35,593 nt of DNA from Candidatus Scalindua sp. (GTDB taxonomy: Bacteria; Planctomycetota; Brocadiia; Brocadiales; Scalinduaceae), in contig JAIQZU010000039.1 in the NCBI GenBank assembly GCA_021776915.1, forward strand, positions 121,720-157,312, written 5' to 3'. Each line of letters opens with the position of its first letter. Positions within the stretch are counted from its first letter, which is position 1. The notes beneath the pieces were generated by a model. That model saw only the letters and a program-made list of their open reading frames with translations. It made no database searches and was not told the origin of the DNA. Both the position numbers and the translations under genes were made by a program. This document shows, one piece after another, positions 31,975-35,540 of this stretch.

Positions 31975-32175
31975 TTAATCTTTTGTTACAACTTCATCAG
32001 TAATGCTAAGCTTTCCACTCGCAAGCTCTTCAAATACCGTTTTAACAGGGTCACTCGAATCTGTCGCAACCAAAGCTGGTGAACCAGCCATCAATTCCCT
32101 CACCCTCTTTATCAATAAAGAAGTCAGGTGGAATGAACCAAGATCCTTTGTTAATTCTTCGGTGTGATTAGTCAT
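31975..32175 (-). CDS. rpoZ: RNA polymerase omega subunit-like protein
   Basis: A 66-residue protein. The stretch FHLTSLLIKRVRELMAGSPALV followed by VFEELASGKLSI matches the omega pattern (x-L-x-x-x-x-x-K-R-x-x-x-L-x-x-G ... E-I/L-x-x-G-K-L). Omega helps assemble RNA polymerase and may bind ppGpp. No gmk or coaBC neighbour is present, unlike the common bacterial order. It precedes the ABC/Gld set by 83 bases and probably shares its transcript. The short size limits certainty. Confidence 0.65.
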   Translation of the reverse strand: MTNHTEELTKDLGSFHLTSLLIKRVRELMAGSPALVATDSSDPVKTVFEELASGKLSITDEVVTKD

Positions 32176-32212
32176 AATATATGTTAAAAGGTTGAAATTA
32201 TTAAAGCTATTA

Positions 32213-32240
32213 CTTTTACCATGTTTTCTGTTTTCGTCAA
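32213..32240 (-). promoter_or_regulatory. Possible promoter for the omega/Gld set
   Basis: Read on the minus strand, TTGACG (32235-32240) and TAAAAG (32213-32218) are separated by 16 bases, about 40 bases before the start at 32175. The -35 is good and the -10 weak. Confidence 0.35.
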
Positions 32241-32406
32241 GAAAAAAACTTCACTTCGAGGCAATAAGCATCAAATTCAGATATTTGCACTTATTAGTAG
32301 TAGTTAAGCTTGTAAGGTTTAACAGCAAGTTAATATCCAGAAAAAAATTCAAGATAATTTAAATGAGAGTATCCATAATATGGTTGCTGAGTGCGGAAAC
32401 ACTGCT

Positions 32407-32435
32407 TTGTCACCCTAAACTCGTTTCAGGGTCTC
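32407..32435. repeat. Dispersed repeat-type hairpin
   Basis: CACCCTAAAC and GTTTCAGGGTCT form an imperfect hairpin of a type scattered in many bacterial genomes. It lies in the 480-base gap 32176-32655, which otherwise holds only the two promoters and a GC-rich patch near 32470-32510; I see no gene there. Confidence 0.4.
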
Positions 32436-32587
32436 TTAACATATTTACACATATTGATTCTGAAACTAACCCGACTCCCCCGTCCGAACGGCCTGGCCGG
32501 GTGTGCGTTATTCAGGTGGGCAAATTTAGAATGGTACTTTTAGCTATTTTGACCTTCCGTAACAGTTACTAATAATATAGTTATAAC

Positions 32588-32616
32588 TTGACTTTGTGCT
32601 TTTACAGAAGTATTTT
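32588..32616 (+). promoter_or_regulatory. Likely promoter of the CNB-PqqD-HprK operon
   Basis: TTGACT (32588-32593) and TATTTT (32611-32616) with an ideal 17-base spacer, 39 bases before the first start codon at 32656. Confidence 0.55.
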
Positions 32617-32655
32617 ATGTGAAATATAAACTGAATCTAAAGTGGAGATGTTGAT

Positions 32656-33063
32656 ATGCGTTTAGCGGGTACAACGTTCAAAGAGGCTGGGAAAAAATTT
32701 CCGAAAGGAACTGTGTTATTTAAAGAGGGCGATATTGGCACAGAAATGTTTTTAATAAACTCAGGCGAAGTAAAACTGAGCAAGAAAACAAACCAAGGAA
32801 ATGTAATTTTAGCAACATTAGGTTTTGGAGAATTCTTCGGGGAGATGTCCGTTATTACAAACAAACCAAGGACAATTACGGCTGAAACTGTTTCCGACTG
32901 CAGACTGAATGTTATAAGCAAGGACGTTTTGGAAACATTGATAACAGGCAATCCATTAGTCGCCCTGAGTATTCTGAAAAAACTGGTGCTCAGACTGGAA
33001 AGTGCATATGAACTCATTGAAGACCTTTTCGTCAAGCACATTAAACAAGATAAAAACAAGTAA
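32656..33063 (+). CDS. Cyclic-nucleotide-binding domain protein
   Basis: A 135-residue single-domain protein. The beta-roll core includes GTVLFKEGDIGTEMFLINSGEVKL and the phosphate-binding cassette FFGEMSVITNKPRTITAE, with the conserved Glu and Arg. No DNA-binding domain or enzyme is attached, so it would work by contact with other proteins. It is the first gene of a tight operon: PqqD-like starts 11 bases later. AAAGTGGAG precedes the start. Confidence 0.9.
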   Translation: MRLAGTTFKEAGKKFPKGTVLFKEGDIGTEMFLINSGEVKLSKKTNQGNVILATLGFGEFFGEMSVITNKPRTITAETVSDCRLNVISKDVLETLITGNPLVALSILKKLVLRLESAYELIEDLFVKHIKQDKNK

Positions 33064-33074
33064 TATGTTTTAAA

Positions 33075-33350
33075 ATGGAAATAAATGCGGACTTTGTACC
33101 AGCAACAAAAGAATGCATTGAAATTGAGGAACTTGATGACGGCTGCATACTTTATGATACCGAAAAAGATGTAGCACATAGTTTAAACGTTACAGCAGCT
33201 TCTACCTGGACATGTTGTGACGGAAAACATTCAATAAAAGAAATAGCCGCCATTGTGGAGGAATGCTTCGAACCAAAAAGCAAATCAGTCATTGAAGACA
33301 TAATAAAGATCGTTAAAGTTTTTTCAAAAAAAGAACTCTTAAGATCATAA
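33075..33350 (+). CDS. PqqD-like protein
   Basis: A 91-residue protein with the PqqD pattern: ILYDTEKDVAHSLNVTAASTWTCCDGKHSIKEIAAIV, then a helix-rich tail. PqqD folds bind leader peptides of ribosomally made, modified peptides and hand them to the modifying enzyme. Two adjacent cysteines are unusual. It is followed by an HprK-related kinase, an arrangement I know as the HPr-rel-A type set. No precursor peptide gene is visible in this window. Confidence 0.8.
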   Translation: MEINADFVPATKECIEIEELDDGCILYDTEKDVAHSLNVTAASTWTCCDGKHSIKEIAAIVEECFEPKSKSVIEDIIKIVKVFSKKELLRS

Positions 33351-33375
33351 GCTTCATACCGTTAATTTTAATAGT

Positions 33376-34248
33376 ATGGAGCTTTTTTTACAGCCAGACT
33401 CCACCATGTATTTATTAAATTACAAACTTCAATCACACCGGTTTTCCATACAAACTGGAAACAGAAAATTGGCAGATTTGTGCTCACAGCTTTATCCCAA
33501 CTCAAGATTTATACACAACAGCCGCAACGGGCATGCAGATATAATTTATTCACTGAAGATGAAAACCGATAGTGTTACCGGTACGATATACGAGATTTAT
33601 ATAGACGGCAGAAAGAAGTATAGAACTAACAGTAAATCAGAATTGTTTTCACATCTTGAATGGATAGTTACGTGCAATACACTGTCCCATCTTCAGGAGT
33701 TTTTCCAAATACATGCCGGCGCTGTGGTAAAGGGCAGAAAGGTTATACTGCTGCCTGCCAACCATGGTTCAGGCAAGACCACTCTTACACTAAGCCTTAC
33801 CATGAATAATTATCGCTGCCTTTCCGATGATATAGTCTTGATAGACCCGAAGTCACTCATGGTCATCCCTTTCCCGAGAAGTTTTTTGATAAAGGAGGGT
33901 GCAATTAAAAAGCTGGCCGGATCCAATTTAATAGATAAGAGGAACGGGTATTATTGCAGGTCAGATAATATCTTATATTTTAATCCTGATATCAAAAATA
34001 AATTATCTACCGAAAAAATGAAACCGTATGCCATAGTAGAATTAAAACACAACCGCCGCTTCAAAAACGAACTAAGGCCTATCAGCAAATCTCAGATGTG
34101 TATTAAGCTGCTGAGACAGTCGTTTAACGTTCACAATTACAAGAGGAAAGCAGTCACAATCCTGACTGGACTGGTTAGAAACTGTAAATGTTATTCTCTG
34201 AAGACAAACAATGTGGATGATGCCGTACGCCTGATATCTCAGATATGA
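33376..34248 (+). CDS. HprK-related kinase (HPr-rel-A type)
   Basis: A 290-residue protein related to HPr kinase/phosphorylase. The P-loop is ANHGSGKTT (residues 128-136), with alanine where the first glycine usually sits; IHAGAVV (112-118) and SDDIVLIDP (150-158) are further HprK-like motifs. True HprK phosphorylates a serine of the phosphotransferase protein HPr, but there is no HPr nearby, so the target is likely another protein or a peptide presented by the adjacent PqqD-like protein. It overlaps the next gene by 4 bases (ATGA). Confidence 0.82.
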   Translation: MELFLQPDSTMYLLNYKLQSHRFSIQTGNRKLADLCSQLYPNSRFIHNSRNGHADIIYSLKMKTDSVTGTIYEIYIDGRKKYRTNSKSELFSHLEWIVTCNTLSHLQEFFQIHAGAVVKGRKVILLPANHGSGKTTLTLSLTMNNYRCLSDDIVLIDPKSLMVIPFPRSFLIKEGAIKKLAGSNLIDKRNGYYCRSDNILYFNPDIKNKLSTEKMKPYAIVELKHNRRFKNELRPISKSQMCIKLLRQSFNVHNYKRKAVTILTGLVRNCKCYSLKTNNVDDAVRLISQI

Positions 34249-35540
34249 ATGATCCAACCGCCAAAAGACATATTGCCCGACTCTTAAGCCTTAAACCGGG
34301 TGATGAGGACATTGATAAACTATGGAATAAATTGGAATCCATAGAGTGGGAAGACATCATCGATATTGCACAAGCAAATCGCGTAATGACGCTGTTATTT
34401 TACAAGATCAGGCAACTGGGGCTTGAATCCAGGCTGAAACCGGAAACGCACCGGATTATGTCCCTCGAATATAAAAAAGGTGTAGCGCTGAACGTTGTCT
34501 TAAGGCATGTGTTAAAGGACGTAATGCGTTCGTTAAATCAACATGGCATCAAGGCCGTCATTTTAAAGGGTGCAATAAATTTCTGTGAAAATATTTATGA
34601 GAATTGGAATTTGAGGTCAATGGAAGACCTGGATATCCTCATTAAGGAAGAAGATTTCCCTGCTGCCAGAAAATGTATGCAGACAGCAGGCCTCACTTAT
34701 ATAGGAGGCCGAATCCCTTACGACCTCAGCGAGGACTTTGAAGGCAGGGATATAGCCGTCGATATGCACTATCAACCGGTACCTCAGAAATATATTGGCC
34801 TGTTTGATATGGATGCATTCTGGGCAAATACAATCGAAGTAAATATGGATGGTATTAAAATGCATATTCCATGTCCAACAGATCAAATCTACCACAAGTT
34901 TGTTCATGATGTAATCCGGCATCAGGAATTAATCAATTTCCAGATTCAGGATTTATGTGATTTTGTTATGACCTGCCAATATTATAAAGAGAGGATAGAC
35001 TGGGAAGAGATACTGTACAGAGTCAGGAAAAACAGTATTGAATCTTTATTTAAACTGCACTGCTGGCAGATTAAAAAGAACCTCGGATCGGAATTACCGA
35101 AACCCATAAAAAATTTGAGTGATGACAATATTCAGTACTACGAGAAATGGTGCGACCTGCTGAGCAAATGCCCCGAATGGCTTGAGTCTGCAAGTGAACG
35201 CCTTATGGCAATATTAGTCAGGGGTGGCAATCCCCTGGAACACATCAAGAACTCATTTAATGTCCTGGTGAAAGAATCCGTGCTGGATGAGTCAAGGGAG
35301 TTTCTGTTCTCTATATATCATATAAAGGGAATAGGTATTTTATTACCATTCCTCCGTATAATACACCTATTCAGAGTCGTTTTCCTACACATCATAATTA
35401 TTGCCTACCTCTCAATAAGAAAGAGGGAAGGGGGGGGGGTAAAGGGGGAAATGGGTCACCCATTAGTAGGCTCCTGTCAAGCACAAAAGACCTCCCTTGC
35501 ACAAAAATATCAGCTTTTTTTGCGTTATCAATTTCGATGA
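34245..35540 (+). CDS. NTP_transf_5 family nucleotidyltransferase
   Basis: A 431-residue protein of the uncharacterised nucleotidyltransferase family. The active-site region ILKGA (residues 106-110) followed by RSMEDLDILI (124-133), with Asp128 and Asp130 as metal ligands, is typical. Family members often accompany HprK-related kinases and PqqD-like proteins in polysaccharide or peptide gene clusters. The start overlaps the kinase stop. The C-terminal 40 residues follow a run of ten G (35430-35439) and have odd composition, so a frame error or phase switch there may have altered the natural end. Confidence 0.85.
   Translation: MNDPTAKRHIARLLSLKPGDEDIDKLWNKLESIEWEDIIDIAQANRVMTLLFYKIRQLGLESRLKPETHRIMSLEYKKGVALNVVLRHVLKDVMRSLNQHGIKAVILKGAINFCENIYENWNLRSMEDLDILIKEEDFPAARKCMQTAGLTYIGGRIPYDLSEDFEGRDIAVDMHYQPVPQKYIGLFDMDAFWANTIEVNMDGIKMHIPCPTDQIYHKFVHDVIRHQELINFQIQDLCDFVMTCQYYKERIDWEEILYRVRKNSIESLFKLHCWQIKKNLGSELPKPIKNLSDDNIQYYEKWCDLLSKCPEWLESASERLMAILVRGGNPLEHIKNSFNVLVKESVLDESREFLFSIYHIKGIGILLPFLRIIHLFRVVFLHIIIIAYLSIRKREGGGVKGEMGHPLVGSCQAQKTSLAQKYQLFLRYQFR

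Follow-up and report, generated by a model that had tools for sequence, protein, structure and literature searches.

What do four adjacent genes of Candidatus Scalindua, a marine anammox Planctomycetota, act on, if they join a cyclic-nucleotide-binding (CNB) protein to a PqqD-like protein, an HprK-related kinase and a nucleotidyltransferase-like protein? The genes lie in the stretch of 35,593 nucleotides analysed here (the window), which is the end of the 157-kb contig C33 in a genome of 3.8 Mb. In the following, G numbers denote genomes, with G000 as the window's own genome, and L numbers denote loci. The cassette and its upstream surroundings consist of these features:

31975..32175, minus strand: RNA polymerase omega-like subunit, 66 aa (PF01192, 1.4e-7); divergent neighbour, also present in Scalindua-type loci
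32176..32655, plus strand: intergenic region, presumed cassette promoter, from the divergent gene arrangement
32656..33063, plus strand: CNB, 135 aa, stand-alone cyclic-nucleotide-binding domain (PF00027 cNMP_binding, 1.2e-23)
33075..33350, plus strand: PqqD-type discrete RiPP recognition element (RRE) (PF05402, 6.8e-9)
33406..34248 (longest ORF from 33376), plus strand: HprK_rel_A-like kinase (TIGR04352, 1.1e-34)
34245..35540, plus strand: NTP_transf_5 nucleotidyltransferase-like protein (PF14907, 2.6e-40)

The four genes described in a previous sequence-only reading are genuine and complete, as open reading frames and Pfam and NCBIfam matches showed, and pN/pS values of 0.14-0.32 for each gene (compared with three relatives) indicate purifying selection. 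That reading named the CNB gene in its text, but set the start at 33075, which omits it. The four ORFs follow each other on the plus strand in the order CNB, RRE, kinase and NTP_transf_5, with gaps of 11 bp between CNB and PqqD and 55 bp between PqqD and the kinase (from start 33406), and with a 4-bp overlap between kinase and NTP_transf_5. This spacing suits one transcript, and no terminator-like site was found on the plus strand of the cassette. A single promoter for all four genes is plausible; promoter-like matches numbered 16 vs 12.5 +/- 4.1 in shuffles, which is not clearly above chance. The omega-like gene marks where the cassette is inserted in Scalindua, a conserved position, and is no functional part of it. 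At 35431-35540, the NTP_transf_5 frame crosses a run of about 10 G into about 40 residues unlike any relative; the contig ends close by, and this odd C-terminus may stem from an indel or be a genuine lineage-specific tail.

The PqqD-like protein had been read as presenting peptides, and its closest solved relatives agree with this. Searches with its profile (A3) revealed the lasso and LPP RREs TbiB1 (5v1u; 1.4e-13) and LppB (9x8z; 4.7e-10) as best matches of solved structure, ahead of the PqqD of PQQ. The Pfam match to the PqqD family held, but TIGR04353, a profile proposed for checking it, was not reported at E<=1 in the NCBIfam search, where ScmD (TIGR04248; 7e-7, 29.3 bits) was best. In an alignment, the window's PqqD has N38, D75 and L88, all conserved, at the positions of N33, D70 and L83 of LppB (LppB numbers were obtained by locating in the alignment the residues that PMC13381572 names). 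LppB holds the Tyr through a hydrogen bond from D70 and the kink at the Pro through N33, and its L83 forms part of the lining of the second pocket; the motif bound by discrete lasso and LPP RREs is YxxPx[hydrophobic] (PMC13381572).

The kinase aligned with TIGR04352 (HprK_rel_A) over 273 residues. With 119.8 bits, below the cut-off of 200, it is a diverged relative of this family and no formal member; the gene set is related to HPr-rel-A, as had been suggested, with a kinase that falls short of membership. Its start is better placed at 33406, as orthologues open with MYxLxYKL. The catalytic His, the P-loop HGSGKTT and the SDD are present, and H103, G123, K124, T126 and D141 are invariant in 12 diverse kinases, which bears out the identification as an HprK-related kinase. 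The profile check likewise confirmed the NTP_transf_5 protein, which has the KGA...LRSMEDLDI motif and H175, so that its catalytic residues (KG, RxxxDxD, H175) are present, with K108, G109, D128, D130 and H175 invariant. AlphaFold models from shallow alignments reached a mean pLDDT of 42 for the kinase and 55 for the transferase.

Neighbouring PqqD, kinase and NTP_transf_5 genes recur in diverse Planctomycetota, and the linkage expected in relatives was thus found for this trio. The kinase is present in 10 of 13 genomes of the genus (own included) and, at high identity, in two other genera of the family; the closer-kinase alignment matched Scalindua-type loci only. In Scalindua and the sister genus genome G014, the four genes lie together beside the divergent omega-like gene and an ABC-transporter operon, the downstream side varies, and no conserved downstream neighbour was found in relatives, where neighbours are annotated in part. 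In G012 (L042, 9541-10395) an in-frame TAG breaks the kinase gene, while the frames of PqqD and transferase are uninterrupted; a counterpart of the secretion operon described below was not found in this genome. The window's own genome has a second set on another contig (L045, G000:C80, 7898-11085) of PqqD, a lasso B2-type protein (NF033537), an HprK-like kinase and NTP_transf_5, and no cyclase gene or precursor was recognised near it. A similar set in G016 (L051) also has genes resembling radical SAM and GNAT enzymes.

A search of the neighbourhoods for a conserved small gene, as the sequence-only reading had advised, detected one beside the PqqD, kinase or transferase gene in most well-resolved cassettes outside Scalindua. 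It is unannotated, and no Pfam or NCBIfam family above cut-off was found for its products. Their shared layout is [RK]R-x-[FL]-[LI]-K followed by a brief hydrophobic segment that contains Y-x-x-P-x-[IV], in many cases A-x-A, and finally a variable tail. YxxPx[hydrophobic] occurs in 31/33 small proteins vs 0.92 expected from shuffles of the same segments, a count that measures conservation and not independent events, since the sequences are related. Shuffles served as control for the motif; a Tat-signal control set from the loci had only 3 sequences. The [RK]Rx[FL]-type motif is found in nearly all small proteins and AxA in about half, with no Tat family above cut-off. The association is not universal: the small gene was not found at L104-L106, L109, L113, L118, L119, L045 and L051, and several of the loci without it represent other subtypes (B2-type, or long Brocadiaceae-type kinases). 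A 177-aa candidate beside a kinase in G186 (L112, 10588-11121) has a long Ser-Lys repeat tail (SKSKSGSKSRSKSG...) and is possibly a multi-phosphorylated substrate.

The statement that no precursor peptide is visible was true for the window, but a candidate exists elsewhere in the genome. The own small gene (G000:C63:34007-34300) lies away from the cassette, within an operon of T2SS/T4P (type II secretion/type IV pilus) type, and the motif of its product reads YVTPAI, with Y58 and P61. Profile A6, which contains no Scalindua-genus sequences, detected small ORFs in G000, G001, G004 and G014 with E values of 5e-6 to 3e-7 (own 5e-7). Profile A8, of which the own protein is part, gave one strong match in the own genome (3e-20). 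Among 294 Planctomycetota genomes, A8 revealed ten small ORFs at E<1e-5 outside the profile, a count that leaves out L115, a close homologue of a profile member. Nine of the ten lie beside the kinase and/or transferase (L103, L108, L111 (twice), a second L114 copy, L269, L270, L047 and L273), and the tenth (L271) is on a 4.5-kb contig without kinase or transferase genes. The specificity of A8 is imperfect, as it also matches large Tat proteins in a few genomes, one at 9e-7 (G256). A DNA pattern for RRxFLK was also tried on the own genome and rejected; it returned a Rieske protein and others, and the true gene has Ser at x, outside the RAN pattern. The own Rieske protein reads AYAIPLI, so RR with a hydrophobic YxxPx is possible in ordinary Tat anchors. 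YxxP was also sought in plasmid loci of Proteobacteria, where the Vibrio RR-signal protein upstream of the kinase has none and Sphingomonas likewise; we therefore limit the YxxP reading to Planctomycetota. On the Vibrio alfacsensis plasmid (L274, 4875-5687), a gene for a 270-aa protein carrying a Tat-like signal immediately precedes genes annotated as HprK-related kinase A and nucleotidyltransferase, a hint that the targets in Proteobacteria are larger exported proteins.

In nine Scalinduaceae genomes the small gene occupies a syntenic site, before a GspE-type ATPase gene and together with T2SSE, T2SSF and pseudopilin genes in one operon; in G016 the small gene adjoins the kinase. It is present in all nine genomes that have an intact kinase and could be assessed at the locus, and in one of the six whose orthologous kinase is absent or broken (Fisher p=0.002, or 0.035 with G002 and G009 scored absent, phylogeny ignored). 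In these two genomes the cassette is present and the small gene was not detected; the G002 contig breaks there, and the operon was not found in G009. G010 retains the secretion operon and has neither small gene nor kinase. G015 was scored as lacking; its cassette is of another kind and comes with a W-type small protein of its own (WMIPVI). The exception is G001, which kept the small gene and PqqD and lost kinase and transferase. At this locus (L221, 1-1895), unrelated DNA directly after PqqD replaces the two genes; PqqD, CNB and the distant small gene remain.

The tails of ten Scalinduaceae small proteins vary in length and sequence, and a Pro-Thr is invariant in all of them (10/10). Its Thr is the sole hydroxyl residue after the leader in several (L232, L233, G014, G001). 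KPTGP occurs in three proteins of family f19, and five small proteins of Brocadiales have a terminal Ser (GLS or SLS), a feature shared with paeninodin precursors (PMC9266682). From this invariant Pro-Thr or terminal Ser, the kinase is predicted to act on that Thr or Ser. In the own protein, T80 of the Pro-Thr would most likely be the phosphorylation site, with other Ser residues of the tail as possible sites. LppK rejects Thr for Ser in LPP, since S3T is not phosphorylated (PMC13381572), and a Thr site would thus be a real difference from LPP.

We infer, with somewhat better than even confidence, that the cassette is a linear phospho-RiPP-like pathway in which PqqD binds the C63 small protein and the kinase phosphorylates its tail; gene content, conservation, linkage, motif and candidate are observed, and the chemistry is proposed from them. 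Before export, PqqD would dock on YxxPx[IV] in the N-terminal part of the RR-type protein, which is encoded in trans, and the HprK-like kinase would phosphorylate a hydroxyl residue of its short basic tail. By analogy with the proposal for PsmN, NTP_transf_5 might then lengthen this phosphate by a nucleotide or a sugar. The leader would double as a Tat-like signal (RRxFLK, a weakly hydrophobic segment and an AxA-like site) and export the product, after which cleavage by a signal peptidase of the host would free the tail; the neighbouring secretion/pilus machine may be the partner of the freed tail or its way out. LppK, PadeK and PsmK/PsmN are precedents for the action of kinase and transferase (PMC13381572, PMC9266682). 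Among the transferase precedents, PsmN and LppN, the chemistry itself is unsettled (PMC9266682, PMC13381572). Transferase step and export route are held with less confidence than the binding and phosphorylation, and the transferase step is the weakest part, because deletion of LppN had no visible effect in LPP (PMC13381572). Against the proposal stand a motif that is buried in the signal segment and must stay free for the RRE before export, a cassette without leader peptidase or transporter, the kinase score below the TIGR04352 cut-off, and the small gene kept in G001 after the loss of kinase and transferase. A wider form of the proposal, which we hold tentatively and at slightly below even chances, sees a widespread phospho-RiPP-like family of Planctomycetota (perhaps of HPr-rel-A as a whole) whose RRE would find its docking motif within an export signal. 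One N-terminal segment would be the recognition leader at first and the Tat/Sec signal later, with the anammox substrate placed in the T2SS/pilus operon and modified at a single Thr.

The position of the Scalindua gene between T2SS/T4P genes (T2SSE, T2SSF, T2SSG and N_methyl domains) would also suit a small protein that is not the substrate but a partner or membrane anchor, drawing RRE and kinase to the secretion apparatus or inner membrane; another protein, such as a pseudopilin or an ATPase of the operon, would then be modified instead. The very basic and short tail and the better conservation of the membrane-like segment fit this as well. In other Planctomycetota, however, the small gene lies beside the cassette and no T2SS genes were noticed; its tails diverge in length and composition like RiPP cores, the Thr is invariant within an otherwise variable tail, and motif and RRE pocket fit a leader-RRE pair. 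We therefore regard an anchor as rather unlikely. It is highly improbable that the cassette is associated with exosortase/PEP-CTERM and acts on exported surface proteins or glycans. The general link to such genes, one of the neighbourhood checks suggested earlier, did not hold up: TIGR02602 (E<=0.001) revealed no exosortase in the own genome nor in G001, G002, G006-G008 and G012, most of which carry the cassette, and G010 has an exosortase and no cassette. Exosortase is present in some relatives, and in one sister genus (G016) a PqqD-kinase-small gene-transferase set does lie beside the exosortase-A-associated genes TIGR03098 and TIGR03099.

The CNB gene raises the further idea of a cyclic-nucleotide-gated phosphorylation switch, in which CNB would sense cAMP or cGMP and control the kinase, with PqqD and transferase in signalling instead of peptide maturation. 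The phosphate-binding cassette of CNB (FGEMSVITNKPRT) is intact, with G62, E63, R72 and T73 invariant, the genome has five class III cyclase matches, one of them on the window's contig, and the gene is fixed in Scalindua-type cassettes; no DNA-binding domain was found in the protein. The gene is, however, restricted to cassettes of Scalindua and one sister genus (G014) and absent from every other cassette checked, G010 keeps it without the RRE-kinase-transferase trio, and a switch leaves the small gene and its YxxP motif unexplained, so we consider it very unlikely. In G011 the CNB gene is shortened beside transposase-like ORFs. Since it is missing from trios elsewhere in the phylum, the trio is the module and CNB a later, lineage-specific addition, possibly with a regulatory role; its earlier description as an addition to the HPr-rel-A arrangement is supported.

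The phospho-RiPP-like reading has consequences beyond this locus. The PqqD/HprK-like/NTP_transf_5 trio recurs in many genomes, and a concrete candidate substrate, a docking motif, pocket residues and a predicted site are now proposed for it. If true, polyphosphorylated RiPPs would reach beyond Bacillota and be connected with export signals as well as with a secretion/pilus operon, and an orphan gene set of marine anammox bacteria would gain a function. The open literature searched here did not name the HPr-rel-A system or describe the small proteins. DUF2063-associated RiPPs use different modifying enzymes and another RRE-bearing protein. They resemble our candidate in that their precursors (DUF2282) have a Sec export signal ahead of the modified part, and no specific recognition motif is predicted for them (PMC12710340).

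HPr-rel-A has the same three gene types adjacent and in the same order (TIGR04352 kinase, PqqD-family chaperone, nucleotidyltransferase); the window set differs in the lower kinase score, in ScmD as best match of its PqqD and in the added CNB. Two Planctomycetota kinases above the TIGR04352 cut-off (L101, L102) have a small RR...VxxPxL gene directly upstream, and the proposal may thus hold for HPr-rel-A at large. Tailoring of paeninodin and pseudomycoidin (PadeK, PsmK, PsmN; PMC9266682) is similar in RRE-guided Ser phosphorylation by an HprK-like kinase, followed by an NTP_transf-type enzyme on the phosphate. In contrast to these lasso systems, the window cassette has no asparagine-synthetase-like cyclase or B2 peptidase; the B2-type protein is in the second set of the genome. 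With LPP of Bacillota (PMC13381572), the cassette shares a discrete RRE, an HprK-like kinase, an NTP_transf-type enzyme, the absence of a macrolactam cyclase, a Tyr-type YxxPx[V/I] motif and a short precursor with variable tail. It differs in that its four genes include no SpI-like peptidase LppS or MsbA-like exporter, in that YxxPx[IV] follows a Tat-like RR signal instead of standing in the LPP leader YxxPxVLxHQxIxFETxxS, and in its substrate gene in trans in Scalindua, the added CNB gene and the other phylum. As leader consensus, LppS and exporter are missing, we do not count the cassette as a member of LPP, but we infer that it works like LPP and paeninodin phosphorylation.
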